From Watersipora subatra (taxonomy: Eukaryota > Bryozoa > Gymnolaemata > Cheilostomatida > Watersiporidae), in contig NC_088708.1 in NCBI RefSeq assembly GCF_963576615.1, positions 56,407,196 through 56,471,195 on the forward strand: a stretch of 64,000 nt of DNA, read 5' to 3'. The number at the start of each line of letters is the position of its first letter. Position 1 is the first letter of the stretch. A program made the position numbers and the translations under genes. Below the pieces are notes generated by a model. The model did not search any database. It was given only the letters and a program-made list of their open reading frames with translations, and was not told the DNA's origin. Below are positions 3,341-63,713 of the stretch, piece after piece.

Positions 3341-3402
3341 TTAGTGCTAAACCATGGAAACACTAGATATTTAATAACAGTTTTAAATCAAGATGAGCTT
3401 AC

Positions 3403-3612
3403 TCTGGCAGACATCTTTATCATAGAGACTTTTGCCGAGAGGTCGAAAGAAGCCATGCACGCACTGGTCGCAGTTGATTCCTTCAGTATTATCTGTGCAG
3501 TTTTGGCAGACTCCGCCACCTTCATAGTTACCATAAATGTCTACGGAGCGGCCTTGGTCATCCACTTGTTGACTGTATACGCAGTCGGTTGCGTGTCCAA
3601 AGCACTGGCAGG
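3403..3612 (-). CDS. LAMA5: Laminin alpha exon 5: second LE repeat
   Basis: The exon is 210 nt, phase 1 to phase 1; acceptor TTACAG|CC, donor CAGA|GTAAGC. It encodes [18 protein letters not shown], then [19 protein letters not shown] and [12 protein letters not shown]. The GHATDC and GGGVC...NT.G.NC motifs are characteristic of LE repeat 2. Confidence 0.92.
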
Positions 3613-35304: not shown

Positions 35305-35337
35305 ATGATTGATGACAACGTCAAAGTTGCTGTTCGG
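35305..35337 (+). CDS. KIF27: Kinesin exon 1 (start codon)
   Basis: 33 nt, [11 protein letters not shown], donor CGG|GTATGT, phase 0; joins to VRPLLAKE of exon 2. This is the usual VKVAVRVRPL start of a kinesin motor. Confidence 0.9.
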
Positions 35338-38300
35338 GTATGTATTACACTCACATTAGTATTTGAAGATCTAGCTTTGAATGTTAGGTCTTGCTCGCGG
35401 AAATTATTTGAGTGCATGCTTTTGTGCATAGAAACTGTTTAGATGTAATGGTCACCATCTACTTGCAATTCAGCTCATGCCTTGAATCTCTGTAGGTCTT
35501 GATGCTGTATTACCTTTACACAATAGTTGTCAAGTCTGCTAAATGCTTGGTAGAGTTTTTTGTTTTATTAAATACACGTGCTCATTCGAGAATTGGTTGT
35601 AATACAACCGACACAAATGTGCATGTATAGGCTGGAATATATTTGGTTTAAGTTTTAAAAAGTGAAATCTCAGTAACAGTCTGACAATCAGTCTTTAAAG
35701 CTAGTAACTGCTTTTTGTGCCCAAGATAATAAATGTGGATTGACAACCAAGTCAACTTTTACAATGTATTATCTTATCAAAAAGGTCCTTCCGCTAAAAC
35801 ACTCTCAAATAATGAGCGAGTGGTGAAAAGTACTTTTAAGTTTAAGTTTATTGAGGTACTTTGAGAATTTTAGACAGCCCAAAATAGTAGGCATGAGGGC
35901 ACTAAATTCATGATTGTTCTACACAATACGTCAATGCTCTTTTGAATCTTTAAAAACATTTTAAAATTTACATTTTACAAAATCAAGCTGATCGTTTTGC
36001 TCTATAATTCTAATGTTTTTGTGTTGATTTTATCAACCTAATTGTATTGTAAGCTTAAGAGTGGGTACCAGACTGCTAGGGCTGTTAGAGTATTTCTTCT
36101 GTATTAGTAGTCACGTAAAGTAACGCTTTGCTTACTGTATTCGGTGAGAAAGTAGGCCTAATAGTCAATTTGTGATTAATTTTTAGTTCTTTCCACTTTT
36201 GAGCTCATTTAAGGATTGAAAATTACTAAAATCAAGTTTAAAGCTTTTTTATATTTGATGCTTTAAATCTGTGAACATCTAACCGCAATTGCTCCTGTGC
36301 TAAATCTCATGAACAAGTGCTCAAAAAAAATTCTATACTAGGAGGAAGACAATTTGTGGTGGCAAACAAATCGAAGAAACAGGAGAAATCTGCAAACAGA
36401 TTTTTGATACAACTTTTTAGAGAATCTTCAAGATATTTCATTTGCTATTTGAAACAGCGCCAAAACTATTAATGTTTTATTTGCATTAACAATGCTATAT
36501 TTTAGGTTTGTTTTATACAATCAAACCTTTAGGGTATGTCATCAGTTGGAGTCGTGTTTTTCTATGAGGTTGTTGCTTAGTCATTGTAACTCAGCTAGCA
36601 TGAATTGTACCAAACAGAGCTGAAAGATCAATACGATAAACAATGCTTAATTAACCGTGTTACAAATCTAGCATTTTTTTTTATATCGACAAGTTTCAAC
36701 TATTTATCTTTGCTTCCTCCAACACCGTATTTCTCATCACTACTTTGGCAACCAGCAAGCATGCTCTGTAAGAAGATGGTGCAGTTACACTCAGGTGTCA
36801 TTCGTGAACCTGCCGTGATGTACGTATTATGATGCAGGTCAGACCCCTGTTGGCTAAAGAGACGGTTTCAGGGGAACAAAAATGTGTTAAAGTACTAAAG
36901 GACTCTAAGCAAGTTCTTGTGGGAAAGGACAGGCTCTTCACATTCGATCACATCATTTCTCCTTTGGAGAAGCAGGTGAGACTGCAGACGAGACTGCAGA
37001 CGATATTCACTACTTTTCCCGAGGGCCCTCAAAGACCAGACTACACTTCTGGTTGCTAGCTTTTATCATCAATAGACTCCTTAGTTTCTTTATACCTTTC
37101 ACATTAATCGCTTATAATCCTCTTAAATCTAATTACGAGAGTTATTGTGCGTGACTATTCATCTCGATAAATCTATCTTCTGCAGGATACACTATACGAG
37201 AGGTGCATAGACAGCCTAGTGACAAGCTGCCTTGAAGGTTTTAATGCCACAGTATTTGCCTATGGACAGACGGTATGTCAGAAATAGCATTTTAATTTCA
37301 TACTATGGACTCGTAGAGTGTTTTCATCATTTCTGAATCTCAAAACTGAATGACCTCTAGAGGTCATGTCGATAATGAACATGCTTTAATGTTTGCAATT
37401 GGATGACAAATACATGAACTGGAACAACCAGTGTTTTAGAATACTCCATTATTGTAAGAGACAGATCTTTATTAACACTTATGCACAATACTGTTGTATA
37501 ACTGATATAGTGAAACTCAAGATGATGGACAAGTTAAAACATATGAGGAAGAATGATGCGTGTGAAATTGCCTTTTCTCAGCAATATCTTGGCAATAGGG
37601 TACCTAATGCCTCAGCTGGTAATTGATTGGCCAAGTGACATTGATTAACTGCTTCTAAAAATACTGATGAGGGCCTTGTGGGGGCATGAGACCATCGTTT
37701 ATTCACCTATTGACTCAAATACCAAATATTTTATGTTCTGTCAATCAGTCTTCAATATTTCCAAATATTGCCAAAAGTAACAATTTTATTGCGCTTTTAT
37801 GTCTATGCTAAAGTAGTGTACATGTACTTGTAATTGAATAATTCAATTGAAGTTGAAGATATATGCGCAGACATGGACTAAAACCTTATCATCATTCTTG
37901 ATCTTTGCTTCTAAATGATGGCGTCAGCATCGAGTTTTGAATGACAGATTATAAATGGCGTTTATTCTACCGTCAATCTTACAAATTGTAACGTAAAATT
38001 TAGTAAAATGAAATTTGTTAGGTTCAAGAATCCTGCTATATGTATACATATCCATTGTTTGCCTAGTGTGATCTTGGTTGATTAATAGTATTTTGTTAGA
38101 CTAATGTAACTGTTACCTGTTCATTTTGTATAACCTGCAGTTGCTCATACTGGCCTATATACTAATAACAGTGTCTTTGAGATTTCAATGACTATTAATG
38201 TTTTGCTGATCACTTTTTACCTCTTCCGGTACACCCTTATTTTGGATACACAGCGGGTAGACTGTTTGTCTGCCAGTGCTGCAGGATACCGGAAACTTTG

Positions 38301-41300
38301 ATTTTTTAATCAATTTGAAGATATAAATTTTTTCAGGGTTCTGGAAAGACGTATACCATCGGTGGGACTAGTGCTGCCACCCACACTGATGAAGAACTCG
38401 GTGTAATACCACGGGCTTTACAAAGACTATTTCTGTTAATTGAGGTGAGCTTTCTCAGGAAGTTGTCTGAGCAGCTTATCAATTATTAAGAGAGATAAGC
38501 TGATGCCGCGTTCCTGTTGACGTAGAGTATAATCTCTTGTTGAGATGATGCTTTCTCCTTCGTAATACATACTTCAACCCTCCTTGACGATTCTATGTTT
38601 ATCACTTTTATTCTACGTGACGAGATGAAGATTCGCAATTTGAGATGAGTTGGTCACTCTATTTGCATAGGCGCATTCTAATAATATTTGCTTAGAAAAA
38701 TTGTGCTCATCCCCTCCTACCATTCGACACAAATACATATGAAACCATGGCGTGACGTATTGCGTTATTCCGGAACGGATACCTTTGAGTGAAGGACAAC
38801 ATTAGCACCAGCTGTGTTTGTCTTTAACACTCGGTGTCTTTTTCCTACTGAATTTTTCTTTTCTTATAAAGGAAATATGATGCGTTTTGCCTCATCAAGC
38901 CATCACAATAGAACGGCTTACATATACTGTTTGCACTAGATTGTACTAGCTTTGGAACATATTTTAGGAGGCGTTGTTATGAGTTGCGTAATAAGTCTTA
39001 TGTGAATGATGAAAAAATAACTGCTTTTAAAATGTTGAGATTACGCAATAATTAGTTTTCAACTTGGGCGTTTCATCATTTTCATAGTTAAAAAAGAAAA
39101 TTACTCTATTGCGGGATTCACATATTATAGCTTTTTCTTGCAAATTTACAAACCAGAACAAATGTGAACTCTGGGGTATCTTGAATGTGAAATTTCAAAC
39201 ATGTGATATTTGCTTAAAATGACAGGTGTATTAAAAATGAAGCAAGACTCAAATAGATCATTTATCGCTTATTTTCATAGCTAACATTACTACACTATCG
39301 GTAATGCTAGTATCATCAGACTATCTGTATAGTTAGTATCATCAGACCATCTGAATAGCTAGTATCATCAGACTATCTGTATAGCTAGTATCATCAGATT
39401 ATCTGTATAACTAGCATCATCAGACTATCTGTATAGCTAGTATCATCAGACTATCTGTATAGCTAGTATCATCAGACTATTTGTATAGCTAGTATCATCA
39501 GACTATCTGTATAGCTAGTATCATCAGACTATCTGTATAGCTAGTATCATCAGACTATCTGTATAGCTAGTATCATCAGACTATCTGTATAACTAGTATC
39601 ATCAGACTATCCGTATAGCTAGTATTATCAGACTATCGGTATAACTAGTATCATCAGACTATATGTATAGCTAGTATCATCAGACTATCTGTATAGCTAG
39701 TATCATCAGACTATCTGTATAGCTAGTATCATCAGACTATCTGTATAGCTAGTATCATCAGACTATCTGTATAGCTAGTATCATCAGACTATCTGTATAG
39801 CTAGTATCATCAGACTATCTGTATAGCTAGTATCATCAGACTATCTGTATAGCTAGTATCATCAGACTATTTGTACAGCTAGTATCATCAGACTATCTGT
39901 ATAGCTAGTATCTTCAGACTATTTGTATAGCTAGTATCATCAGACTATCTGTATAATTTATTGGTGAAATGAATCACAAATAGATTAGGCATAAACAAAA
40001 ATTGCCGTTGTGATATGCAAGGTTTGTTTACAACACATATTAGGCCAGCGATTGGGTATTTTTTTATTTCCTATATTTTCATCTCGTATTCTTCAGTTTA
40101 AAAAACCCACGCTTTAATGTGTTCTTTATGATGTATGCGTTGCTATTTTGGCATTACACATGACAAATCTGTACACAAATAACAAAAAAATATAAACTAT
40201 AAACTTGTTTTTCTTTGAAAAATACCTAACAATATATGCATATTAGCTATCACCTTGTTTTTGACTTCAAAAAGTTTGAGAAAGCAGCTTTATCTTGCAG
40301 CGAAATTTGAGGATTTTTGATCTTGAAAAATTGTTATAGAATTGTTAAAATTTAAACAAAGATTGTAATCAGCAGGCAGTTCAGCTGAGACAAGTCAGTT
40401 TAACTTTCATAACAAAAGATTTTGTAGAACCAAGGCTAAATTATGCTTTAGTAGTATTTTCTTCTACCAGTCCAATTTATTGTGACTTCATAGTTTACAA
40501 TTTTTTGTCAAAGTCGATTTTGCTGTTCAATAGAAAAATTTGCCATAATTGTATATTAGTTAACTCTATAGCTGAGGTTTTCGGAGTGTGAAGGAGACCG
40601 GATTAGTTTAGTCTGTCAAACTTGTTTAAAGTTAGTTTTGGTTCCTTGCTAGCGGCAGCTCATTTCAGTGGCTGCCTATTGATTTACATGACTAAATATA
40701 CTTACCCAAGGGTCTCTGTTGTTGCCATGTATTACAGGAAGGAAGAAGTGAAGGCATAGAGTTTCAGGTGTCCACCTCTTATCTTGAGCTATATCTAGAG
40801 GACCTTCGGGATTTGCTTGATGTGAGCACGAGCAGTAAAGACATCACTATTCGTGAGGATGATCAGGGCAACACCGGTATGTGTCAGCTAGCATCTACGC
40901 TGTTGCAACATTTCCTGTCAGCATGTTTCCTGTCAGCATGGTTTCAGAGGCCTACTTAATAATTGAGGGTAAAGTGGACTCTTTTCTTTTGTATGCGGTA
41001 TAAATTTGAGGATTCTGGGACTTGGGTGAACTTAAAGGTGTTGACAGGTTTTCTGGAATGGAAAATATGGTAGTAGCATTGCCAAACGCTACCTTTTTGA
41101 ACAATTGCACAATGAAGAAATTGGCCAACTCACGAGTCTATTGCGAGCATAAAGAGTTCAATTTTTATTTGAAATAAATCTTTATTTAGTATTAAAACGG
41201 AAATGCATGACATATATTTTGATACAAAAGTATCTTATGATAATCACAAGCTGATTTTATGACCATCTGTAACCCAGGCGTTAGAGCACGCAGTTTAGTT

Positions 41301-44300
41301 GGTGTTTGAGTCTCACAAAAAGTTGCTGATATCATGACAGTCGTTTAATTTTAATGCTTCTCCGCTCCTTTAATAACCTTTAAATGTCCTTTTTCAAATT
41401 CACTTTTATACCAGAGGTTAACAGAAGAACTCACAAGTAGTTAGCATTGCTATCGAAAAAACTATTTTTGTTAGATTATTATTAAACCATTAAATTATAA
41501 TTGAATAATTAAATCAGATTTTTCATGTTATTGTGAGGTAATAATTTGTTGCTGTACATAGCTTGCTGCAACAACACTCGGGGGTTGGAGGACCTGACAA
41601 AATTTGTGGACGTTTTCTCTTTCCATTTTCCTGATTTGAGCGGATATCTGGACCCTGTACTCAGGCACTTGTGGTTTTATTGTATGTTGGTTAGGACATG
41701 AAGTATCATAGTTAATGTACTGTTATTAACAACTTCTGTCATTTCTCAAACTCGTTTCCAATCTTTAACTGCCCAGACAAATGATTGATCAGGCAGCAAA
41801 TATTCGATCAGTGTTTCACACTGTGCTCAAGAAAAACTACATTGCACTCAACTCGACCATTTTTTTGTGGTTCATATTTTTCTGTTTCATTTTGTGCCAA
41901 CAGATACACAGATATGCATAATATTGAAGCTGTTCTTTTACTCGACTTCTCATAACGTTTGAAGATAAGACTATTGTTTTCCGTGCCATTAACCTTAAAA
42001 TAAACTACTTGTAGACTTCATACTGTTGACTGCGTGGGCGCAAATAGTTTGAGTCCATATTTTAAAGCTTAAAAAACTTTCAATGAAGCGCAATCAGGTG
42101 ACAGAATGTTTGAGGATCTGCGCAGGAAACTTTGCTCTTGAAGTTGGCGTCACGGAGATAAGCTTATGCACGTAGAAATATTTAGTCATGTGGAGCCAAA
42201 ACTGATGAAAATGCTTTTGATCTTTAGTTTGTTTATCTGATAGTTTGAAAATACATTTATTTATTCTTGTTTCTAACGAGTCCATACTTTACACCATTTC
42301 TGAATTATGCTCCTCACTTCTCTATGTACTTTTATTTCTAACGCTAGTTAAGCTATTAAAATTTCACTCAGGGTAGTAGAAGATCTGCTACTAGCGGCAT
42401 TCATATTTGACATTTGACCTTTTAATTGCTTATCACACATTAAAATTATCCTCTATATAAATGCACAATGTTTGCGTTTATTCATTTATTGTTGCAAAAT
42501 CTATTTGTATGCACAAACTATATGTTAACAAATTTTACTACATTATGTTTTTATTAAAGTGGTGTCGGGGATGCGGGCAGTACCTTGTAAGTCCGTGGAC
42601 GAAGTGCTCTACTGCCTCCAACATGGATCAGCAGCCAGGCAGACTGGTTCTACTCAAATGAATGAGCATTCCAGCAGATCACACTCTGTGTTTACTGTCA
42701 CACTAGGTAAGTGTTCCAGCAGGTCACACTCTGTGTTTACTGTCACTTTAGGTAAGTGTTCCAGCAGATCATACTCCATGTTTACTGTTACTTTAGGTAA
42801 GTGCTCCAGCAGGTCACACTCTGTGTTTACTGTCACTTTAGGTAAGTGTTCCAGTAGGTCACACTCTGTATTTACTGTTACTCTAGGCAAGTGTTCCAGC
42901 AGGTCACACTCCGTGTTTTCTGTCACTCTAGATAAGCGTTCTAGCAGGTCACACTCTGTATTTATTGTCACTTTAGGTAAGTGTTCCAGCAGGTCACACT
43001 CTGTGTTTACTGTCACTCTAGGTAAGTGTTCCAGCAGATCACACTCTGTGTTTACTGTCACTCTAGATAAGTGTTCCAGCAGGTCACACTTTGTGTTTAC
43101 TGTCACTCTAGGTAACTGTTCCAGCAGATCACACTCTGTGTTTACTGTTACTTTAGGTAAGTGCTCCAGCAGGTCACACTCTGTGTTTACTGTCACTTTA
43201 GGTAAGTGTTCCAGTAGGTCACACTCTGTATTTACTGTTACTCTAGGCAAGTGTTCCAGCAGGTCACACTCTGTGTTTACTGTCACTCTAGGTAAGTGTT
43301 CCAGCAGGTCACACTCTGTGTTTACTGTCACTCTAGATAAGTGTTCCAGCAGGTCACACTTTGTGTTTACTGTCACTCTAGGTAACTGTTCCAGCAGATC
43401 ACACTCTGTGTTTACTGTCACTTTAGGTAAGTGTTCCAGCAGGTCACACTCTGTGTTTGCTGTCACTTTAGGTAAGTGTTTCAGCAGGTCACACTCTGTG
43501 TTTACTGTCACTCTAGGTAAGTGTTCCAGCAGATCGCACTCTGTGTTTACTGTCATTTTAGGTAAGTGTTCCAGCAGGTCACACTCTGTGTTTACTGTCA
43601 CTTTAGGTAAGTGTTCCAGCAGGGCACACTCTGTGTTTACTGTCACTCTAGGTAAGTGTTCCAGCAGGTCACACTCTGTGTTTACTGTCACTCTAGGTAA
43701 GTGTTCCAGCAGGTCACACTCTGTGTTTACTGTCACTCTAGGTAAGTGTTCCAGCAGGTCACACTCTGTGTTTATTGTCACTCTATGTAAGTGTTGACAA
43801 TCTATTCTTGAAGTAGGACAAGTTGTCAATTAAAAATGACAGAAATTGAATACAATTATCTGGTAGTATAAATTATATCTCTCTGATAATCTCTGACTCA
43901 GTTCCACCATCACCAATATACTTGTGATGGTTGTGTGAAATGTATTTATAATTTTTAAAGGTTTGGTGTCTAAATAAAAATTGAATAGTTCTGTTATTGG
44001 GCCCCTCAATGTTATTATTAATATTGTATATCTTGAAGATAAACATAGGTGATTAAATAAACATCTAAAAAGGAATAGAAGTGTATAGAAGCATAATTGA
44101 AATTGGATGGTTAAAGTTGTGCCTCTTTTGAACATCATATTCTCTAGCTACAGATCTTTAACCAAGTTCGTCTGTTCAATGAGTTTTTTGCCATGTGTTT
44201 TTGTCACGAATCCTCAAGTTTAAAAATAACACATAAAGCATCACTAGCTGGCCATCTGGACATTGAATTGTTGCTATGCTTTTAGATCTAATAATATGTT

Positions 44301-47300
44301 ACTAATGTGTGAAATGAGTGATAACATTTAATGTACTGCAACAACTTACTCCGGTCAAAAATAATCAAACCGACAAGGTTAAAAAAGCATGCCAAAGTTG
44401 GAAGGGGTTGATGATATCAACAGGATGTATCTGAGCTGGTAACAAATATTTATCAGAGAGATTAAGTTTAAGATTTTTATTGGCAGTTCTGGTCAGTTTA
44501 GCACCAGAAAGTGATCCTACCTCCTAATAAACAAACAAAACTTTTAAGTTATATGTTGAAAAACCAGTTTTAAATGCTATATCATAGCCAACCAGTAAAT
44601 ATTCGTTTAATTGAAATGTCGTATCCGCTTCACAGTGTATTAGAATCTGCAGTTTTTTCACTAGCAAGTGCCAGTTACTCAAGCTATTAAGATTTACTAG
44701 AATCAATAAAAACTTTTTATTTATAAGTTGTCAGAACTCAAATTTTCAAAAAATCTGTAATGGACCTGAGAGCCTTGGTGATGATCATGCACAAGGCGGT
44801 CAATTGAGTCACAAGTGAGGAACTCAAAAGGTGACTGGGCTGCACATTTCTATAGAGCTGTCATCTGCTACACTGATAACAATGCTTAGATCTATAGATC
44901 TGGCATCTGATTCTACCTTTGAGGCCAAAGATTTTCTATTTTTAATTTTCACTAAATTACGCTGAAGTATGTTCTATTGGCAGAGAATGTCTCATTGTGA
45001 CCTTATCTATAGTCGGAAAGACGCTGAGATTAGCCCCGAAGCTGCTTTGCATTCCCAGTACATCACTCACCTCTTCAGCTGCTCTACGGATAAGAATGGG
45101 AGACAGCGTTACGTTGTCTCAAGAGTATTAATGTAGGAAAGTCAGTCGTAGGATAGGCGTTATTACGTAAGATATGTCTTTGAGACGGTGTTTCGTCACG
45201 ATGCTTCCTGGAGACCACAGGTCAATCGGCTTTGTCTCTGTGACAAATGCGTGAAAATTCCAAAGTGGTTTAAAAACGGCATAGTTTAGTGATGATATTC
45301 ATGCCTCTTATCGTTATTGCTAAGAGACAGTAAGATAATTTAGCTTTTGTTCGGTGTTTATGGGTTATTTTAATGACTATTATTTTAGAGCAACAATGGA
45401 GGGCAGAAGAAACTAGCCAGAATATAACAAATGATAGCCTGCCGGGTATGTATGGATTCCCTGGCATTACTACTGTCATTAAGCTTAGTTAACAATTGAT
45501 AGGCCAATAGTGTTAGGCCAATTAAAATTGAGTTTATTTTGTAAAAAATTAGAAATTTTAAGAGTTTGTGTTATTGATTGAAACCATATGAATGTTTGGC
45601 ATGACCTTCAAAAGCCAATAATTCAATAATAGGTAAACAAAATTACGGTTCCTCTGAACTATCTCCTCCATTTAATCAAGAAGCTTGTGAAAGATATAGT
45701 TCTAAAACTTGACTCTTTTCGACCTAGGTAGCTTGCTGATGACTACTGCTGCTATCATCCTGTTGATAGAGCACTTAGCCTGGTCATCAAGGGCTCTAGA
45801 TATGAGGAGAATCTTATGTCAGACAATCAATTTCTAGATATACTTGTGATTCAGCTGTAAGATGACTTTGTTCTCTAGCGTATGAACCATGCAAGTCTTG
45901 GTGTTTCAAGTGTCTCCGCTGTTGACACACGAACATCTATTTAGTGCTTCCGGTTTTTTATTGGCCAGCTTGTTACATCAGGCAGGTGATGTCACCCTGA
46001 ATTTGCGAAGGGATGTATCTTCTATCCCTTCTCGTATTTTCCTTGTGGAGCAATAAAACTGTCGGGGCTCAAAGTTTCACTTTTCCTTTTAGCAATACAA
46101 CTATGTCTTGTCGGTATTTCACTTTCACTTTGTTTTCTGGAGCAATACAACTGTGTCTGCTCCAAGTTTCACTTTCACTTATCCTTTTAGGGCAATACAA
46201 CTATGTCTGCTCCAAGTTTCACTTTCACTTATCCTTTTAGGGCAATACAACTATGTCTGCTCCAAGTTTCACTTTCACTTATCCTTTTAGGGCACTACAA
46301 CTATGTCTGCTCCAAGTTTCACTTTCACTTATCCTTTTAGGGCACTACAACTATGTCTGCTCCAAGTTTCACTTTTACTTTTCCTTTTAGGGCACTACAA
46401 CTATGTCTGCTCCAAGTTTCACTTTCACTTATCCTTTTAGGGCAATACAACTATGTCTGCTCCAAGTTTCACTTTCACTTATCCTTTTAGGGCGCTAGAA
46501 CTATGTCTGCTCCAAGTTTCACTTTCACTTTTCCTTTTAGAGCAATACAACTATGTCTGCTCCAAGTTTCACTTTGTTGACCTCGCCGGTTCTGAGAGAG
46601 CCCATAGGACTGGCAATGTTGGTGACAGGTTCAAAGGTCAGTCTTACTTCTTTTCACACGTTCTGTGCACTAGTGTTAGTACAACATTGATTGCGTGTGA
46701 AAATAAAAAATGAGTGATGAACCAAAGAATACTTATGAATAAATAATGCATTTGATGTGGCCTTCAGCTTTGGCTACACCGTGATATGTTCATATCATAG
46801 CTAAAAGCACTATTTAAAAGGCTACAGTTGAATGCTGGAATGTGGTAATCGCTTTTCTATTGTTTCATGATTTTGATTTGTACGAATGTGAGCTGAATGC
46901 CGGCCAATATGAGGTCGTAGCAAGGTTATTGGATATATAAAATATGCAGAATATACAATGACAATATTGATAATGAAGTTCTTGATTTAAAGCACTGCTC
47001 TGTAAGAGTATATAGTCGGCTTTAAGTATTCCTAATAATGTTTTTATTGTAAAACAAACATTTTTTGACGATAACGGCATAATTTTCATTTCATTGAAAA
47101 AAGTGTTTAGTGTGCTCGGTTTGATGAAAATTAGCCAATGAGAAGCTAATTATACTAGAATATTCTGCACAAACACAAATGGCATCGGAAGTGCGCTCTA
47201 AGTATAGAGTCATTCTTGCATTATTGATGCACGCGATCTGCTTTAGTGGACGCAGTGATTTAGTTCGCATTGTGAGGGTTTTGAGAAGGCTGCGCATCTA

Positions 47301-50300
47301 TAACATCGCGTTTGTGTCGCATCTTCAAAAATGTTCATTTGATTTTTAGGAGATGTTGATCAGAAGTGCACTATTTTAAAGTTTTCATTTTCAAAAGCCT
47401 TTGTGAGCAAATGCGTATAAGTCATAGACCTGTTTGTAAGTGCTGACCTATCTATTAAAGATTATAGTGCTGCTTTTCTCTTGGTTTTTTATATTAAAAT
47501 ATGTTATTATGTTCATCATTTTATTACTCATTAGTCATGAGTGCTCAGCATTAATTAATGAGTGTCAACACCTGAGGGGACTCTTTTGTATATGCCAGCT
47601 TGTTTTACTTACAAAATATTGGATTAGAGTTGGTATGGCAGTTGGACCCAAACATTGTTCAATCTATTTTCATCTGACAAGAAGATAATTTTTGTTAAAG
47701 TACACAAACTTGTGTTCAATAAGCACCTGGTAATAGTAAATATGCATGATAAAATAGGGGATTGATAAATCATTGCGCTGGCAATCACCTGTTCACCTTG
47801 TCTATACTATTCAACGGAGCCATCCATGTATATAACTACCACTCAATGCTCACACCTGTCAACCATACGCTACCAGGCTGACGATTAACAGGGTTCAGTA
47901 CATTTTAATGATGCTGTTGAGAGGCCCTTTCGGGCCCATGGGCTTTCTCCTCCACTCATATCTGCCCTTTCGCTGCCTGCAAAACATCCTGTTTTTTAAT
48001 AGTTTTAATTAATGAAATTTTGCTAGCATTTACTAGACTGTTCAACTCAATTGTCATATCAATGTGGAGAAGCGTGTCCTTTCCGCGCCCGGTAATGAGG
48101 ACGCCAGCTGACTCATTCCAATGGATGCTGATTAATAGACATAACTGAGGATATTCTCACCAAGCCATGCTGGCACAGTCTCTCGCAGGTCGTTAGATGT
48201 TCACCTTGAATCAATTTTATTTCACATCCGCATGCTAATATTTTATTAGCTGACAAATTATATTTCTCACAAATTTCAGAATTGCTGAATGAATGAAATA
48301 TGAATACAGATTATATAAGGTTACGCGCAGTTCACAGCTGCATAGTAGTGGGAAACGTGCATCACAATTTCATATCAATGGCTTTACTCCAATCAACCTG
48401 TTTGAAGTAATATTTAGCATTAAATTAAATTTTTACGGAGGTGGATTATAGAGCATCTGAACACGTGAAGCAGTGATAGAGTGAAGGTGGAGCATTGCGA
48501 GTCCCAAGGTGTTAAACCGATGCACTTCATAGGCGTCTATAAATAGCCGAGATGTTAACAGTTTGAGGGCTTCTAGGAAACGACAACTGTTGATATAATG
48601 CGATGCATTCACGAGCCGCAGTCCTCTCATATATCAATTGTAAGAACAAGCGAGTCCGGTCGCTCCCAACGCCTCCCTCCCCTGATAACATCACAAAAAG
48701 CGATAGATTTTTGGACCCCCTACACTCATACCTTTAGCTTTGATGAAGAGTCTACACGTGACACTATCTTTACCTCAAACTGAACCGTATACGTGCGCCT
48801 GTGTAACAAATGTTTAGGAATATTTCGGTATGCTGAAAACTCAAAGCTACAATGAATATGCTACAATGTATTTACTTGAATTCTGTAGTATAGTGTGTAT
48901 ATAGTGCTGACATCTAAACTGTAATTACTTGATTGCTAGATAGCAACAGATTTGCCATCACTCACTTGATAGGTAGTCGTGTTATCATGATAATACTGCA
49001 GAGGAGCAGGTCTGGTTTGACATGAATTTAACAAATGGGTCTGCAGTGCATAGCATTGCAAATATGCTAAATATCGCTTTTATATGATAAGTACTGAAAA
49101 TTAGGTAACCATGGTACTGTAAGCTCTCAGTAGAGTGATAGCCATGGCATTGTAAGTATTCAGCAGAGGGATAGCCATGGTACTGTAAGTACTCAGCAGA
49201 GTGATAGCCATGTTACTGTAAGCTCTCAGTAGAGTGATAGCCATGGTACTGTAAGTACTCAGCAGAGTGATAGCCATGGTATAGTAAGTACTCAGTAGAG
49301 TGATAGCCATGGTACTGTAAGTACTCAGCATAGTAACAGCCATGATACTGTAAGTACTCAGCAGACTGATAGCCATGGTACTGTAAGTACTCAGCAGACT
49401 GATAACCATGGTATTGTAAGTACTCAGCAGACTGATAGCCATGGTACTGTAAGTACTCAGCAGTGTGATAGCCATGTTACTGTAAGCTCTCAATAGAGTG
49501 ATAGCCATGGTATTGTAAGTACTCAGCAGAGTGATGGCCATGGTACTGTAAGCTCTCGGCGAGTGATAGCCATGGTACTGTAAGCTCTCAGCGAGTGATA
49601 GCCAGAGTACTGTAAGTACTCAGAGGAGTGATAGCCATGTTACTGCATGTACTCAGCAGACTGATAGCCATGGTATTGTAAGTACTCAGCAGAGTGATAG
49701 CCATGTTACTGCATGCACTCAGCAGAGTGGTAGCCATGGTATTGTGTGGGAGCCCCGATTAGCTCCTCTGTTTATGGCTTAGCCATGTATCACTCATCAT
49801 CATGTACATAGATGTAGCGCTTGCAGTCTTCTATGTTATATAGCTGATAAAGAATAGCGCTCAGGAAATAAGCGTTAACGCAAGGAAACATATCTGGCTA
49901 GACAGACTTGACACCCAAGAAATCGTACCATACTTGATGAGTTGTGATTTGCTTTGTAGAATCTATCACAATAAATACCGGGTTATTGGCCTTAGGCAAT
50001 GTTATCAGCGCTCTTGGGGACCCTAAGAAGAAATCATCTCACGTTCCCTATCGAGATTCGAAGATAACGAGGCTTTTGAAAGATTCTCTGGGAGGCAACT
50101 CCAAGACATTAATGATCTGCTGCATCAGCCCTGCTTCAAGCGACTTCGACGAGACGCTTAATGCACTCAAATATGCAAACAGGGTTCGTCAATCGAAATC
50201 ACTTTATAAATATGTGAAAGTTAATTAAGCGTTGATGGTTGAAAGATCAGTGGGGCAAATGAGATGGGAGATGTTACGAGGCCATGGTAGAACGCGTGTG

Positions 50301-53300
50301 TGTTTATTTGTGGCTCAGAGAAAGTAATTTCCTTTATGATTAAAGACGGTGTGAGTATTCTTATATGACCTGTTCACCATCCCACTCATTCAACTTTCTC
50401 ACTCGCATGGCTGCCAAGAATTGCTAAGCTTCGTGGCTTTTCTCATGAATAAACTTGGCTGAGTAGCCATTGTTTGTTGGCTAAATGCTAAATACATATC
50501 TGGTCGTGGTCACGCAAGCATATTTCATATTTTTATTGTTATACATTATTGTAGGCGAGAAACATAAAGAATAAGCCAGTGGTAAATCGAGATGTGCAGT
50601 CCATTGGAATGGAAGAAATGCAAAATGAGATTCAGGTAACCCAGATACCATGCATGTGTTTATGCTTGTGTTTGTGAGTATCTATGTGTGCGTGCGCACG
50701 TGCGTGTGTCTATGGGTATCCGTGTGTATGCGTGTGTCTATGGGTATCTAAATGTATGCATATGTCTATGGGTATCTAAGTATGAGTGCCTCTTTGGGTA
50801 TTATGTGTATGCGTGTGTCTATGGGTATCTGAGTGAGTCTGTTACAATTCGTACTAAGAATGCTTGATTGATACTAAGAATGCTAATTGAGAGAATTAAA
50901 ACAGAGCTAATTAAAAACTCTTATATGGCACGCAGTGCTATTAAGTTTAAAGTGAGCTGTGTGTGACAGGGTTAATCTTATCATAAAGGCTAGGCATTGC
51001 GGGTGGATGCACCTTAACTTGTGTTCTATTCCATAAAAGCTAGGCATTGCGGGTGGATGCACCTTAACTTGTGTTCTATTCCATAAAGGATAGGCATTGC
51101 GGACGTATGCACCTTAGCTTGTTTTCTATTCCATAAAGGCTAGGTATTGCGGGTGGATGCACTTTAACTTGTGTGCTATTCCATAAAGGCTAGGCATTGC
51201 GGGTGGATGCACCTTAATTTATTTACTATTCTTATGAAATTATGAAATTCATAAAATTCAGTTTTTCAATTCTGATTACAAATGACAATGGCGCTCGATC
51301 ATCTGTAAAACTGCTTTATACACTGAAGGGCGATGGCATCCGCCATGTTTCTTTATTGCATTAAATGATCTATTAGTGTTACTCCTGTTTAGGCAAGAAC
51401 CAGATGTCTGGCTTACTGCAGGAGTGTTCCTGATAAAGGCCTCTCGCATAGCACCATTAGTTACTCATTACAATTCAGCTCGCCTTGCGGAAGGCTATGT
51501 AGCGACTTGCTATGTAGCGACGTTAATTATGACAATATGTTAGATAATTTTAGAATAAATTGTGCATTTTTCAGATCACTCAAAACAAAGTTTACAAGTA
51601 AACAGCAAGTCGTGTGCCACACTACTATATAATCAGTCAGACTCTATCTTGCTGCTGTCCATTGGCCAATAGCTAAGCATCTTGCTGCAGTCAACTGACC
51701 AATAGCTAAGCAATTTTTATTTTTTTCGCAGTTATTTTGTAAGCTTACCTTGAAAACATTTACAAAAAGAAACAGATATGCTGAGTTTTAAATCATGTTT
51801 GTCCCTAACTGTTCAATAATTGATTCCGCTTGGCAGCACCAAAATTAAATGTTAGAAATGGCTGGTGTAAATCAGGTGATTGCGTGTCAGAGTTTACATC
51901 AATTTTCTCAGAATGTTTGGCTACACAAGTGCATGTCACAATCGTCTAATACGAAAGTAAGGCACTCGCGAGCTGATTTAACGATGCAACTTTTGTAGTA
52001 ATTTTTGACATATTCCAACAAGAGCTGGTATTTGAGCAATTCATAACATGCGCTCCACATAATTATTGAAACTGGAAAAGAGAGTTAGAGGGCCTGATGA
52101 TAGGGCCTGAGCCACAGCTGAGCTGAAATACTTGAAAAACGTAAAAAACCTGGACTGTATGCTGATGTGTACTCGATTTGGCTGCGGTAATGCATTTTAG
52201 AGTTAAACATTGAAAGCCAATGCCACTCTTGAGTTACTGTTTATACATGATAGTTTATACACAGCAATTTCATGTTGTGAAACCTCTTACAAATTTGTCT
52301 CCTGTAAATCAAGTTTATACACAGCAATTTCATGTTGTGAAACCTCTTACAAATTTGTCTCCTGTAAATCACTGCTTATTCAGTTAAACCAATACTAGGT
52401 CAAGGCTAATATTTCTGCTTAGTGTTTATATCTAATTGAACAATGGTACTAGAACGACGCCATTGCTGAGTGTTTTTCACATTACCAACGATTGTTTAAC
52501 TTTGAACTTCACAAAAACTAAGCAAAAGATTAGATAAAATAATTTTGTAAAAAATTTTTTGATTATTAATGTTTTTTAAGCTTACAAGAATCGATAGCTC
52601 TTACAGCACAAATTTCCTGATCTCCATTTTCATTTGCCAGATCATAAATGCAACATTATAGTCAAGGGACACAACTTCTATTTTTACATTTTTCCTCCTT
52701 TAACATGTGCTTTTGCAAGCTATCATCTGCAATTATTATATTATTAAATAATTTATATAGGTAAAATCACTCTAGACAACATGTGTGCACAATGTAGCAG
52801 AGACTGTTTGCGACAAAATATAGGTGGTGGTACCATATATGGTAGTACCAGAAATATCCAGACAAAGTTTTTTAATAGGTATCAAACCCTCTTCAGCAGT
52901 ACTGAATTAGTTTATATAAAAATACTTTCAACTATTTACTATTTTGTGGAGGTGTGAGGACAATTAGCAAATTCTAGATCCAAAGCTAAAGTTAGACTCT
53001 GCGTCAAAAAGAGCTATGTCACTAAACATACGACAGCTGTATCTGGTTGGTGACTCATGTCTCTATAGGGTAACTGTAGAGTTCCTGGAGTGGGTGGTAG
53101 TGCTGTTCCCTAGGTCATTGGTATTACTATTAGCTATTCCTTTACCTCACAATTGCCATGGAAGTTGAATCACTCCGTTTCCCTGATTAATCACTCTGTT
53201 GTTTCCAAGATTTGTCTCATCATATTCTTAGTGATTCACTTAGAATGATACGAAAATCTCCTTTTTCTATGTAAGAGTATTGGAGATGTGTTTTGTGAGC

Positions 53301-59300: not shown

Positions 59301-62300
59301 AATATCTATATATATTCATGGTTATTTTATTTACTTATAAAACATATCATAAATAGGAAAAATAATTTTTACAATTTTTAAAAGTTTTGAGATAGTTTAT
59401 AGGATGTAAATGAGTCATACATGCTGGAGATGAGTCACGGAAATGAGTGAGGATTTATATAGTCATTTGGTACACTATAATAAGATGCGCGGCAGCACCA
59501 AAATATAACTAACCAATGATAGCGAAAATGCAGTAGTTACTAATACTTTTAGAACATCAATTTTGAGCGAAGTATATGTTATCCATATTTTTTGGTAAAT
59601 TTTGTGGCATAGTCAAGATTGGCGTTTTATTGTTTCTCACTCACTGCATATCTGGCAATATCAGGATATTGTTAGCTAGAATATTATTAGCTACATGTAT
59701 AGGCCTACAGTGTAAAACGGGTAAACGGGTTTGATTCAAAATTTAGAAAAACTAAATGCAAGTCTATGTAACTAGAGAAGGCAGCTAGTGCAAAACTGAT
59801 AGCTGTTGTATACAGTCAAACCTCGATTTTTGATCAAGACCGCATGTAAATTTTTTGTATACAGTGTAAAACTTGACTGAATACATTTGTCTCGATATTT
59901 GAAGTAATGTCCAACATACGACCTATGAAATATTTTAAAACAACTAAAAAGGTTGGCATAAATTAAGAATAAAACATGAAAATAATAATAAATATAAACT
60001 AATTTTATTTAAACTTTATTTAGCGTAAGCTAGAGTAAATTACGTTGCAAATGTTTTTCCTTCTCACTCCACAACATGCACTTCCAAGTCTCTACAATTT
60101 TGTTACTTGTTACTCTGCACTTGTTATTTGTGTCTCTAAGGTAGAAGGTATCAATAGAAATCTCTTTACTGAATGTTACATTATTAATTTAGTTTTTGTA
60201 TATAGTTTTTGTATGATATTATATAATTCATCTGTTTTAAGGTTATCTGCAATTACCTTAAAGAGGTATCACTGCATTTTGAGCTGTAAAAAAATTAAAT
60301 AAAATATGTATTCTCATAAGGATGTCTATGCTAGGATATGATAGTTTTGACTTAAAAGACAAATAGGATAATATTTTAATGTTGAGGCTTTACTCTATTC
60401 TTTTGTTCTGCAAGAAGCATTCTAAGTTTGGCTAATATATAAAACAATAATTTGGTAAAATTGTTGTAGCTGAGGATATCCACCCCGTTGCCACCAATTA
60501 CAAATAGCGGAATGACCAATGAGGTGAAACAGGAAGTGGCAAAGGTAAGCCGATGAGGAATACACATGAGTCAGAATTCGTCTGCTTCTCATGGTTACAT
60601 TTTAACAAGGAAAAACAGTTTTACTTGGTAACGCAAAGTTTAAATAGTTTTATATTACATTTTTTAACATTCCTATGTTCACCAGGTGGTTTTTGTGCGT
60701 GTGTTGCTAAGCAACAAAAATACTTAATCCAACTGCTTGCGTCGGTGTGTTATTGTTTCGTAGATAAATTTAGATTTCAACGTTTCAGTACGAAGAAATG
60801 CTGAAGAATGATGAAGAGATATTTGCACAAAAGGCGAAAGAGATCATTGAGCTACAGAATCAAAATGCTCAGCTGGTGAGTTTGTGCTGCAGAGCTCAAT
60901 GTAGTAGTGAAAAGCATTCATCTTTAGTGATAGAGTGTAGAAACTTAGTTGTGTTATGAGCTAAAAAGTTTGTTGCCCCTTGTAAGCTTGCTTGAAGAGT
61001 TCATCTACCCGCATCAATGAACCTACAGTACTTTGTTGACAGATAGTTTTGTAACAAGAGTCCTAACATGTCTATTGCATCCTGTTGCACAAAAGCTATT
61101 GCTAAGTTCATGGTGCCAAGTGTCTGGATAAAATAGTTTTAGTTTAATAGCTCAAAGTTTATCCAATCTTCCAATGTAAAAAATGGTGTAAAACATCAAC
61201 ATGGTCAGGTCTAAAATAGTATTTAAATTTACAACTAGACTTTTAGAGAGATAATTTAAATACTTTTAGTAAAAAGCTTTTAATTTCAATCTTAAAGAGT
61301 TGCTGCCTATAAAGGTAGCAGTAACTCACCTTTAAAGGTAGCAGTAGGTCATCTTTAAAGGCAGCAGTAGTTTATCTTTAAAGGCAGCAGTAACTCACCT
61401 TTAAAGGCAGCAGTAGTTTATCTTTAAAGGCAGCAGTAACTCATCTTTAAAGGCAGCAGTAGCTCATTTTTAAAGGTGAGCTGAAGGCAGCCGGAAAAGA
61501 TTACATTGAGGAGAATTTATGCTATCGAATTTGACATCAAATCTGTTTGTCTGGTATCAGCACATCAAGTTAAAAATGAAATTTGTAAAAAATTAGAAAC
61601 TGAACAGGTTAACTTTAACTTAGAAATATTTATAGTGGACATTTTATGCCCGCTCCTGCTATTGTAGCTTACTGAACATCATACGATTGAATCCGAGTTG
61701 GAAGCCGTAAGGAAGCGTTGTGTTCAGTTGGAAGAGGTTCTCCTAGAGCAGCAGCTAGCATTAGACCAGGTTGGCCCCCATGGAGATGGTCTAGGAGAAT
61801 CTCTGGAAAATGAAAATATCCAACTGTCATCCGGAAGAAGAGCGAAATCTGTTCCGGCTCATGGAGCTCGTCTCCAGGAGCCAGCCGTAAGTTCTTATGA
61901 GTCATTTCCTTTTCTCTCGCTCTTGAGCCAAGCTGCACTTGATTCGTAAAGGAAAGTTTATAATAGAGCAGTGAAAATAATGAACAGCGAAAAACATGTG
62001 TTTACAGAGTTAAAATAAGTTGGTGCCATCAGGAGAAACAACACAACTACATGTATTCTGTTCTTAGAGTCTCTAGTACATGCTATGGTTAGTCATTGTG
62101 TTACCATAGTACTATACTGTATTATCACAGTACTATACTGTGTTACCATAGCACTATACTGTATTATCACAGTACTATACTGTGTTACCATAGCACTATA
62201 CTGTATTATCACAGTACTATACTGTGTTACCATAGCACTATACTGTATTATCACAGTACTATACCGTGTTACCATAGTACTATCTGTGGTACCATAGTAC

Positions 62301-63713
62301 TATACTGTATTACCATAGTACTATAATGTGTTACCATAGTACTATACTGTATTACCATAGTACTGTACTGTATTACCATAGTACTATACCGTATTACCGT
62401 AGTACTATACTGTGTACTATCTGTGGTACCATAATACTATACTGTATTACCATAGTACTGTATTGTATTACCATAGTACTGTATTATACTACCATAGTAC
62501 TGTACTGTATTACCATAGTACTATACCGTATTATCGTAGTACTCTACTGTGTTACCATAGTACTATCTGTGGTACCATAATACTATACTGTATTACCATA
62601 GTACTGTATTGTATTATCATAATACTATATTGTATTACCATATTACTGTATTGTATTACCATAGTACTATACTGTATTAACGTAGTACTATACTGCATTA
62701 CCATAGCACTATACTGTATTACCATAGTACTACACTGTGTTACCATAGTACTATACTGTATTACCGTAGTACTATACTGTGTTACCATAGCACTATACTG
62801 TATTACCATAGTATTATACTGCGTTACTATAGCACTATACTGTATTACCGTAGTACTATACTGTGTTACCATAGTACCATACTGTGTTACCATTGTACTA
62901 TACTGTATTACCATAGTACTATACTGTATTACCATAGTACTATACTGTATTACCATAGTACTGTATTACCATAGTACTGTACTGTATTACCATAGTACTA
63001 TACTGTATTACCGTAGTACTATACTGTGTTACCATAGTACTATCTGTGGTACCATAGTACTGTATTGTATTACCATAATACTATACTGTATTACCATAGT
63101 ACTGTATTGTATTACCATAGTACTATACTGTATTACCGTAGTACTATACTGTGTTACCATAGTACCATACTGTGTTACCATAGTACTGTACTGTATTACC
63201 ATAGTACTATACTGTATTACCATAGTACTGTACTGTATTACCATAGTACTTTACTGCGTTACCATAGTACTATACTGTGGTTACCATAGCATAATGCAGT
63301 AGATATGTGCGCCGATAATGCTCCCTTATTTCCTGTTTAGTCTTCCAGTAGTATAACAATAGCCACTGCCCAGCACTCTTTGCCTAGTGTAATAGTTTGC
63401 CAATGGTTGGTTCCTTTTTTGACGAGGAGTAACATGTAACCGCAATTTCTGCACGAAGATTGAAGTTTGTTTTTAGTTATTCGAGCTGTGTTCAAATAAT
63501 CTATGGGAATTATGATGTGGATAACTACACATTGTAGGCCCGACCAGTGCACACAAGCCCGGCACTCTTTACCATAGAGAGATATATGCAGGGTTTTAGG
63601 GCCAGGTCTCAGCTACTTGTTGAAAGGCTCGATGATGAAGATGAGGTTCTTCATCAGCCATTTCTCACGGGCAACGTTGAACTGGAGGAAAGAGACAACC
63701 TCACGGGACTCAA
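35305..63713 (+). CDS. KIF27: KIF27/KIF7/Costal-2 type kinesin, 15 exons (3' end outside the window)
   Basis: A kinesin-4-family protein of the KIF27/KIF7/Cos2 group, which acts in cilia and Hedgehog signalling. Exons join in frame to about 620 residues. The motor domain (about 1-350) has the P-loop FAYGQTGSGKT (81-91), switch I NEHSSRSH (203-210), switch II DLAGSE (250-255), and [40 protein letters not shown] and NALKYANR. A neck and coiled coils follow ([48 protein letters not shown]). The segment [20 protein letters not shown] matches the conserved VHTSP...GFR.RSQ block of vertebrate KIF27, which favours KIF27 over KIF7. Neighbouring exons all have compatible phases. The introns are unusually rich in tandem arrays, two of them built from exon-boundary sequence. 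Confidence 0.88.
35338..36837 (+). other. Kinesin intron 1, nothing recognised
   Basis: 1.5 kb AT-rich intron without repeats or exons that I could recognise. Confidence 0.6.
36838..36975 (+). CDS. KIF27: Kinesin exon 2
   Basis: 138 nt, phase 0, acceptor GATGCAG|GTC, donor CAG|GTGAGA. Encodes [20 protein letters not shown] and [15 protein letters not shown]. Confidence 0.93.
37186..37272 (+). CDS. KIF27: Kinesin exon 3 (first half of the P-loop)
   Basis: 87 nt, acceptor TCTGCAG|GAT, donor ACG|GTATGT. Encodes [20 protein letters not shown] and ATVFAYGQT. Confidence 0.95.
38337..38444 (+). CDS. KIF27: Kinesin exon 4 (GSGKT of the P-loop)
   Basis: 108 nt, acceptor TTTTCAG|GGT, donor GAG|GTGAGC. 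Encodes [10 protein letters not shown] and [16 protein letters not shown]. Confidence 0.95.
39305..39956. repeat. 26-bp minisatellite, about 25 copies (kinesin intron 4)
   Basis: The unit reads gactatctgtatagctagt plus atcatca and is highly uniform with a few substitutions. It is intronic and not a multiple of three, so it makes no long frame. The remaining sequence of intron 4 (38445-40737) shows no exon. Confidence 0.93.
40738..40876 (+). CDS. KIF27: Kinesin exon 5
   Basis: 139 nt, phase 0 to 1, acceptor ATTACAG|GAA, donor ACCG|GTATGT. Encodes [20 protein letters not shown] and [11 protein letters not shown]. Confidence 0.93.
40877..42559 (+). other. Kinesin intron 5, nothing recognised
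   Basis: 1.7 kb AT-rich. No repeat array, exon or element was recognised. Confidence 0.55.
42560..42706 (+). CDS. KIF27: Kinesin exon 6 (switch I), minimal form
   Basis: 147 nt, phase 1 to 1, acceptor ATTAAAG|TG (weak pyrimidine tract). Encodes [28 protein letters not shown] and TVTL, ending at the first CTAG|GTAAGT. The following 24 repeat copies are open in the same frame and carry equivalent donors, so longer forms of this exon are possible. Confidence 0.85.
42664..43786 (+). repeat. 45-bp array, 25 copies, built from the kinesin switch I exon end and its donor
   Basis: Copy 1 is the true end of exon 6 ([14 protein letters not shown], then CTAG|GTAAGT). Twenty-four further units of exactly 45 bp follow from 42707 to 43786, each encoding [15 protein letters not shown] or a close variant. 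The unit is 15 codons and has no stop, so the frame stays open throughout, as does an antisense frame. Of 25 boundary sites, 18 read GTAAGT, two GTAACT, two GCAAGT and three are broken (ATAAG). Shared variants (copies 3-5 like 11-13, copies 8-10 like 14-16) indicate block duplication inside the array. Confidence 0.97.
43787..45388 (+). other. Rest of kinesin intron 6
   Basis: 1.6 kb after the 45-bp array up to exon 7. No exon or element was recognised. Confidence 0.55.
45389..45445 (+). CDS. KIF27: Kinesin exon 7 (57 nt)
   Basis: Acceptor TATTTTAG|AG, donor CCGG|GTATGT, phase 1 to 1. Encodes [18 protein letters not shown], filling the variable loop between switch I and [12 protein letters not shown] where vertebrate KIF27 has a similar-length insert. 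It is supported by phase and splice signals, not by strong identity. Confidence 0.65.
46047..46540 (+). repeat. 50-bp array, about ten copies, built from the exon 8 acceptor and exon start
   Basis: Exact 50-bp spacing at 46141, 46191, 46241, 46291, 46341, 46391, 46441 and 46491, ending at the real exon 8 (46541), with two degenerate copies at about 46047 and 46092. Each unit holds a polypyrimidine tract, a TTTTAG acceptor and the exon start coding for [11 protein letters not shown]. Reading from an upstream acceptor meets TAG at the end of its unit, so only the last acceptor gives the full motor. Confidence 0.95.
46541..46636 (+). CDS. KIF27: Kinesin exon 8 (switch II)
   Basis: 96 nt, phase 1 to 1, acceptor CCTTTTAG|AG, donor AAAG|GTCAGT. 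Encodes [20 protein letters not shown] and [10 protein letters not shown]. Its first 36 nt are repeated upstream in the 50-bp array; only this last copy continues into VDLAGSE. Confidence 0.93.
46637..49100 (+). other. Kinesin intron 8, left part
   Basis: 2.5 kb. A 61-codon frame at 48598-48783 is stop-free with ordinary-looking composition, but has no family motif and is not needed for the kinesin frame. Nothing else was recognised. Confidence 0.5.
49110..49745. repeat. 33-bp array, about 19 copies (kinesin intron 8)
   Basis: The unit contains atagccatggtactgtaagt followed by actcagcagagtg. Because 33 is a multiple of three, an antisense frame of 146 codons appears ([11 protein letters not shown]...). 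Each unit contains gtaagtactcag, a good 5' splice-site core followed by CAG. It ends about 215 bp before exon 9. Confidence 0.93.
49960..50183 (+). CDS. KIF27: Kinesin exon 9
   Basis: 224 nt, phase 1 to 0, acceptor TTTGTAG|AA. Encodes [20 protein letters not shown], then [20 protein letters not shown] and NALKYANR. The donor AGG|GTTCGT is weak, but it is required for the join to ARNIKNKP. Confidence 0.92.
50555..50635 (+). CDS. KIF27: Kinesin exon 10 (end of motor, neck)
   Basis: 81 nt, phase 0, acceptor TTGTAG|GCG, donor CAG|GTAACC. Encodes [15 protein letters not shown], the conserved motor end, then EEMQNEIQ. Confidence 0.92.
50640..50840. repeat. Degenerate GT-rich minisatellite (kinesin intron 10)
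   Basis: Repeated phrase tgcgtgtgtctatgggtatc, about five to six imperfect copies of about 26 bp, starting just after the exon 10 donor. Confidence 0.8.
50982..51231. repeat. 50-bp tandem repeat, five copies (kinesin intron 10)
   Basis: Units start cataaaggctaggcattgcg at 50982, 51032, 51082, 51132 and 51182. Confidence 0.95.
52250..52371. repeat. 61-bp direct duplication
   Basis: The stretch starting agtttatacacagcaatttc occurs twice back to back with no visible differences, suggesting a recent duplication. Confidence 0.95.
52372..54705 (+). other. Kinesin intron 10, middle part
   Basis: 2.3 kb AT-rich. No exon or element was recognised. Confidence 0.5.
54706..54997 (+). repeat. 290-bp dispersed repeat, copy 1 (plus orientation)
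   Basis: Nearly the whole stretch reappears in inverted orientation at 60402-60690 (for example gaacataggaat, gccacttcctgtttcacctc and gtggcaacgaggtgga against its near complement). No terminal inverted repeat, poly(A) tail or tRNA-like box was identified, so the class is unknown. Confidence 0.85.
55020..55082. repeat. AT-rich simple repeat
   Basis: Runs of tatataat/atatat with local palindromes next to the 758-bp element; low complexity. Confidence 0.8.
55110..55867. mobile_element. 758-bp Tigger/pogo-like MITE with perfect 21-bp TIRs
   Basis: The left end starts cagtcaaacatggataac; the right end is the exact complement over 21 bp (55847-55867). TA flanks both sides (55108-55109 and 55868-55869). 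Subterminal 'aactcgaac' phrases repeat near the left end. There is no transposase frame. The perfect ends suggest relatively recent movement. It lies in kinesin intron 10. Confidence 0.85.
56008..56050. repeat. Short direct duplication
   Basis: catgtgccaacaggttgaaa occurs twice within about 45 bp. Confidence 0.85.
56373..56497 (+). CDS. KIF27: Kinesin exon 11 (coiled coil)
   Basis: 125 nt, phase 0 to 2, acceptor TTGCTAG|GCA, donor TCAG|GTAGTG. Encodes [20 protein letters not shown] and [11 protein letters not shown]; joins directly to NEIQ of exon 10 across a 5.7-kb intron. Confidence 0.85.
56498..57445 (+). other. Kinesin intron 11, nothing recognised
   Basis: About 0.95 kb AT-rich sequence without an array or a supported exon. 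Confidence 0.55.
57446..57587 (+). CDS. KIF27: Kinesin exon 12
   Basis: 142 nt, phase 2 to 0, acceptor CTTGCAG|C, donor CAG|GTATCA. Encodes [20 protein letters not shown] and [14 protein letters not shown]. Confidence 0.88.
57588..60401 (+). other. Kinesin intron 12, left part
   Basis: 2.8 kb AT-rich. An orphan Tigger-like end lies at 59816-59890; nothing else was recognised. Confidence 0.5.
59816..59890. mobile_element. Orphan Tigger/pogo-like end
   Basis: ta-cagtcaaacctcgattt resembles the start of the 758-bp element (cagtcaaac...) and the general CAGTCAAACCTC type. No partner end was found. Confidence 0.4.
60402..60690 (-). repeat. 290-bp dispersed repeat, copy 2 (inverted)
   Basis: Reverse-complement copy of 54706-54997, ending about 100 bp before kinesin exon 13. 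Together with copy 1 it flanks exons 11 and 12. Confidence 0.85.
60789..60875 (+). CDS. KIF27: Kinesin exon 13 (coiled coil)
   Basis: 87 nt, phase 0, acceptor GTTTCAG|TAC, donor CTG|GTGAGT. Encodes [20 protein letters not shown] and ELQNQNAQL, like the DE..F.QK..E..EL.N block of KIF27. Confidence 0.9.
61311..61480. repeat. 23-bp tandem repeat, about seven copies (kinesin intron 13)
   Basis: The unit reads about aaaggcagcagtagctcatc plus ttt, with minor variants. Confidence 0.92.
61668..61886 (+). CDS. KIF27: Kinesin exon 14
   Basis: 219 nt, phase 0, acceptor ATTGTAG|CTT, donor GCC|GTAAGT. Encodes [33 protein letters not shown] and [10 protein letters not shown]. The frame is fixed by the join to ARPVHTSP. 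Confidence 0.85.
62090..63292. repeat. 21-bp minisatellite, about 55 copies (kinesin intron 14)
   Basis: The unit reads about taccatagtactatactgta plus one base. The core atagtactat is its own complement, so both strands look alike. The 21-bp period makes long stop-free frames in several frames (up to 296 codons), none of them a believable protein. It occupies most of the 1.65-kb intron between exons 14 and 15. Confidence 0.95.
63538..63713 (+). CDS. KIF27: Kinesin exon 15 (3' limit uncertain)
   Basis: Acceptor ATTGTAG|GCC. Encodes [40 protein letters not shown] and an acidic VELEERDN stretch. The likely donor is CAA|GTTAGT at 63714; TTA|GTAACA at 63718 is an alternative. The frame stays open to a stop at 63787-63789, so a short terminal form cannot be ruled out. 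Confidence 0.8.

Follow-up and report, generated by a model that had tools for sequence, protein, structure and literature searches.

The window, i.e., the whole stretch of 64,000 nucleotides analyzed here from the Watersipora subatra contig NC_088708.1, contains on its plus strand the motor region of a kinesin gene (35305..50635), which has ten exons with GT-AG junctions and continues downstream. Exons 1 to 5 (35305-35337, 36838-36975, 37186-37272, 38337-38444, and 40738-40876) and exons 9 and 10 (49960-50183 and 50555-50635) were placed by splice signals and translation. Exon 6 (42560..42706), with a kinesin Pfam match of 9.7e-21, is 147 bp long, runs from phase 1 to phase 1, and includes copy 1 of the repeat described below. 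Its 3′ part encodes the switch I motif SSRSH and the strand FTVTL, and the exon ends in phase 1 within FTVTL-E. Exon 7 (45389..45445; 57 bp) encodes the 19 residues of the loop after the switch I strand and is in phase 1 on both sides, so that it could be skipped in frame, and exon 8 (46541..46636) carries switch II. The ten exons join into an intact motor of 370 amino acids with no stop. When this sequence was compared with PDB chains, the closest were those of KIF7 (6mlq, E 3.1e-120), and the P-loop GQTGSGKT, switch I SSRSH, and switch II DLAGSE were all intact and aligned to it. As judged by its nearest motor domain, the predicted product is a KIF7-like kinesin. The window also contains a neighbor gene on the minus strand (3383-11555) with laminin-type EGF and N-terminal domains, another on the plus strand (17718-17996) with a methylguanine-DNA methyltransferase domain, and two long minisatellites, at 39294-39955 (26 bp × 25.5) and 62097-63289 (21 bp × 57).

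The end of exon 6 and its splice donor belong to a tandem array of 25 copies of 45 bp (42669..43795, plus strand), the unit being made of 38 bp of the exon end and GTAAGTG from the intron start. Tandem Repeats Finder reported a period of 45, 25.0 copies, 91% matches, 0% indels, and a score of 1890. The copies in register with the exon 6 end occupy 42662-43786. A previous sequence-only reading had described 25 in-frame repeats of the end of the kinesin exon for switch I together with its donor, and Tandem Repeats Finder, the splice signals, and the translation confirmed this description, as well as the exact 45-bp length of the 24 extra units. The boundaries are 45 bp apart, and therefore, as had been stated, they are all in phase 1. 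The exon 6 frame continues uninterrupted across the 25 copies and ends in CKC before a TGA at 43795-43797, forming an open frame of 422 amino acids. The boundary reads GTAAGT in 18 of the 25 copies, including copy 1, GCAAGT in two, GTAACT in two, ATAAGT in two, and ATAAGC in one; no normal donor is present at the three that begin with AT. The figure of 18 GTAAGT boundaries had been given for the extra units, and it is correct only when copy 1 is counted, the extra units having 17 of 24. Similarly, the 12-residue peptide assigned to each unit was found exactly in 15 of the 25 translated copies, and the others differ from it. The sequence TAG/GTAAGT is present at 17 of the 25 boundaries, copy 1 included, and, of all donors in the gene, that of exon 6 matches CAG/GTAAGT most closely (one mismatch versus two to four in the other nine exons). 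Since these 17 donors are identical, are the best of the gene, and include copy 1, the donor sequence itself gives copy 1 no advantage.

Compared with their own consensus, the 24 extra units differ at just 50 of 1080 positions, which excludes a chance origin of the array. Units 4-5 are identical to units 12-13, unit 10 is identical to unit 16, and the mean divergence reaches its minimum between units spaced 8 and 6 apart. Identical blocks of units are what block duplication would produce in a minisatellite, and they suggest turnover of the array. The left edge of the array, within the exon, is TTCCAGC and the right edge is GTAAGTG/TTGAC; both share TT, and a seed duplication with 2 bp of homology fits this arrangement. 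When 241 bp of exon 6 plus array were searched against the 783.7-Mb assembly, the 12 matches obtained all lay within this array. Matches of the translated array to the Pfam families PliI and DUF968 were discarded as chance hits of repetitive sequence, as no stretch passed alone. Tandem arrays are a usual site of assembly errors, and one could imagine that this one results from an error or a misjoined repeat. Nonetheless, the differences between units are ordered, with 50 differences and block duplications, the DNA matched only at this place, in a 79-Mb contig, and similar arrays exist at other junctions (see below), all of which make an artifact very improbable. The array, 25 × 45 bp over the exon end that encodes switch I and the adjoining donor, is thus confirmed as real, although its copy number in the assembly may be off.

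A second junction array, absent from the sequence-only reading, was found in the same gene. It consists of 10 units of 50 bp (46073..46572, plus strand) over the exon 8 acceptor, each with 18 bp of the intron 7 end and 32 bp of the exon 8 start. Eight of the ten units have an in-register acceptor, seven being decoys and one the true acceptor at 46541. The two most upstream units are degenerate, the first of them keeping an out-of-register TTTTAG. Each of the seven in-register decoys, when joined to exon 7, led to a stop at residue 239 or 253, and the true acceptor was the only one of the eight to avoid it. These truncations indicate that the exon 8 array gives no useful isoforms and that splicing has to select the copy closest to the body of the exon. 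A donor array and an acceptor array therefore occur together in the KIF7-like gene. Two other repeats were observed in this gene. A 12-bp unit, GAGACTGCAGAC, is present in 2.2 copies directly 3′ of the exon 2 donor (window 36976-37003) and is perhaps a junction array at birth. Within intron 8, a 33-bp × 19 array (49109..49745, plus strand) includes 17 GTAAG motifs and no exon part, and forms a second sense-strand run of donor-like sites.

If different copies of the exon 6 array were used as donors, the gene would produce kinesins in which n × 15 additional residues separate the switch I strand from the next loop. The shared phase of the boundaries and the 17 TAG/GTAAGT donors are compatible with this possibility, and among the joins tried (1, 2, and 24 extra copies) those with one or two extra copies joined to exon 7 kept the frame without a stop. 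There is also said to be a precedent: Turri, Cuin and Porter reportedly described in 1995 a minisatellite that supplies multiple splice donor sites in an interferon-induced transcript, that of human 6-16/IFI6. The likeness to the KIF7-like array lies in the multiplication of a splice donor by a minisatellite. Against such use, copy 25 (43742..43786, plus strand), whose boundary is TAT/GTAAGT, creates a TAG stop when joined to exon 7. The expectation that splicing from any intact copy would keep the frame was therefore borne out for one and two extra copies and failed at the last one, and the 25-copy isoform, which had been thought formally possible, cannot be made in frame. The seven truncating decoys of exon 8 also argue against productive use of different copies, and extra strands inside the motor core would likely be harmful.

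The substitutions in the array were compared with the expectation for random change. The 24 extra units have 23 distinct changes, 13 nonsynonymous and 10 synonymous, and random change should give 66-71% nonsynonymous and 26-33% synonymous. The synonymous changes are slightly above the expectation (10/23; one-sided P 0.06-0.20). No stop codons were found within the 24 extra units, and the probability of finding none in the absence of selection is 0.50-0.81. The SSRSH motif is altered in copies 3, 19, and 22. Neither the substitutions nor the absence of stops in the 24 extra units gave a significant sign of constraint on the array peptide, which counts against the use of different copies. A coding function was rejected as the leading reading since both are as expected without selection; it must be said that the absence of indels and stops in the array is also predicted by coding use.

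Other kinesin exons of the assembly were inspected for similar structures. The kinesin profile gave at least 131 exon hits, two of them within the window, and 87 of the other 129 were examined (78 + 9). The distance between array and hit was listed up to 80 bp in one run (53 hits) and up to 40 bp in another (78 hits), the nine later hits had flanks of at least 100 bp, and the junctions were placed by visual inspection of splice signals and kinesin sequence. Four of the 87 hits bear arrays whose unit crosses the junction into exon sequence. One of them, L057, is a donor array at a coiled-coil exon of another kinesin (...LQVELAEYKQ), located at C1:32989145-32991599 (locus 1-2455). It has at least 36.6 copies of 67 bp, which are 97% alike, and extends past the end of the locus. 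Every additional unit changes the reading frame, and in the consensus there is a TGA 3′ of the donor. The others are a donor array at L018 (32 bp × 39.2) and acceptor arrays at L052 (74 bp × 4) and L054 (52 bp × 15.1). Together with the exon 8 array, the units of the other five junction arrays are 50, 67, 32, 74, and 52 bp, none a multiple of 3. Therefore, the frame-keeping of the 45-bp unit looks accidental, and the idea that it reflects design was discarded. This observation also weakens the case for the use of different exon 6 copies, an explanation that, all points considered, we regard as unlikely.

Some arrays close to exons were left out of the count. The units of L040 include an acceptor AG and those of L083 the intronic part of a donor, and neither contains any exon bases. 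The arrays at L015, L024, L033, L041, and L049, and a 15-bp array of L018, touch exon hits and were not counted after reading their sequences. Near another kinesin exon, L025 (C10:36546661-36547806) has a 56-bp × 20.5 array, the sense unit of which contains TTTCAG, 17 bases, and GTAAGT, resembling a repeated micro-exon with both splice sites. At L044 (C4:6106334-6107499), two adjoining 46-bp arrays have units that are near reverse complements, forming a large inverted minisatellite pair. No clear junction array was found at the 20 myosin exon hits examined of the 75 found, with flanks of 59-350 bp; L078 may be a degenerate instance, and at L064, L067, and L077 the neighboring arrays are confined to the intron.

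In the 202,847 bp of kinesin surroundings that were sampled, 9.7% of the sequence consists of minisatellites (15-150 bp, at least three copies). Under random placement, 1.19 junction-spanning seed units are expected for 78 hits, and four were observed (Poisson P 0.033); with arrays of at least 2.5 copies the expectation is 1.46 (Poisson P 0.061). As evidence that the repeat process may target splice sites, this excess is weak, since the scoring of the four cases was done by eye once the search was finished and each hit was taken to have two boundaries. Donor-like GTRAG[TC] motifs in arrays, 5 sense versus 1 antisense of 49, are too few to use, and two of the five are counted junction arrays. 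Junction arrays are about as frequent as a minisatellite-rich genome should yield, perhaps a few times more, and in the kinesin sample they do not look purged.

Comparable structures have been described in other organisms. In amphioxus, mirages are minisatellite-like tandem duplications across 5′ or 3′ exon-intron boundaries, with many units carrying AG/GT signals, and they are reported in Adh3, where units measure 10-72 bp, in the globins BflGb6 and BflGb9, and in TnC and PGBD5 (PMC3087553, PMC3902484). According to the first of these papers, RT-PCR and Adh3 data suggest that splicing is undisturbed, repeat numbers differ between haplotypes, and new introns are proposed to originate perhaps from mirages (PMC3087553). 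The lancelet PGBD5 paper adds Adh, TnC, and PGBD5 and again takes splicing as undisturbed (PMC3902484). The two KIF7-like arrays resemble mirages in that they span the exon-intron boundary (38 + 7 bp and 18 + 32 bp) and have splice signals in their units (GTAAGT at 18 of 25 boundaries, an acceptor in 8 of 10 exon 8 units). They differ in that 25 donor copies are in frame and donor and acceptor arrays occur together. At the sequence level, the KIF7-like array shows the characteristics of a mirage. Another related process is intron gain via tandem duplication of AGGT segments, the Rogers 1989 model, with potato RdRp as a case. In fission yeast, several copies of a 24-bp segment lie inside exons, with introns across the copies (PMC4974935). 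In these cases, as in the KIF7-like gene, tandem duplication multiplies AG/GT signals; however, a new intron arises there, whereas here the junction of an old intron was amplified. Repeats located at exon-intron boundaries have also been described in a potato gene (PMC4974935) and in human segmental duplications (PMC2812944). The exon 8 array, the four other kinesin arrays, and the amphioxus mirages do not sustain the view that the amplification of a motif with its 5′ splice site is very unusual.

The arrangement of the exon 6 units could also be read as a run of recursive splice sites. Each unit would provide a pyrimidine-rich stretch, TAG, and then GTAAGT, and the intron would be removed stepwise, leaving the mRNA unchanged. 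The juxtaposition AG/GT is the form of a ratchet point, and AG directly abuts the donor as TAG/GTAAGT at 17 of the 25 boundaries. The pseudo-acceptor before unit 24, which has the consensus sequence and is the sole boundary measured, has 13 pyrimidines in 18 positions, and the true acceptors of the gene have 9 to 12 of 18 in eight of nine cases and 16 at exon 8. Nonetheless, AG/GT follows automatically from copying an exon end TAG before its donor, and stepwise removal seems a very unlikely explanation for this array.

On the available sequence, the exon 6 array is probably, and with good confidence, a splice-junction minisatellite, or mirage, with splicing at copy 1 and the remaining copies intronic. 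A tandem duplication across the exon-intron junction would have given birth to the minisatellite, which would then have grown to 25 units through slippage or unequal exchange in a minisatellite-rich genome. The spliceosome most likely splices at copy 1, which adjoins the exon 6 body. Copies 2-25 would then be intron DNA, and the protein would be an ordinary KIF7-like kinesin. A single rule, that the copy nearest the exon body is chosen, making the shortest exon, would yield the right product for both arrays of the gene. The suggestion of the sequence-only reading that the array may be silent intronic DNA when copy 1 is used is therefore better supported than isoform use. A broader alternative, which we consider rather unlikely, is that some transcripts are spliced at copies 2-24 and encode a motor carrying an insert of variable length, composed of repeated switch I/strand modules whose number would vary between individuals along with the repeat number, or that the AG/GTAAGT units act as a recursive splice-site run; more broadly, very many junction-spanning arrays would exist in the genome and be resolved by the shortest-exon rule.

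Read as a splice-junction minisatellite, the exon 6 array belongs to a class already described, is most likely silent, and has counterparts elsewhere in this genome. Its interest is raised by the co-occurrence of a donor array and an acceptor array in a single gene and by the sign of recurrence in the genome. Junction arrays can mislead gene annotation, as is illustrated by the 422-amino-acid frame opened by the one at exon 6. The arrays are also a natural test of how the spliceosome chooses among near-identical sites, with 17 identical donors and eight in-register acceptors. If splicing is precise, the sequence of the sites could not account for it, and exon definition would become the foremost explanation. 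With junction arrays at 4 of 87 other kinesin hits, splice choice may be testable at many genes with ordinary RNA data.
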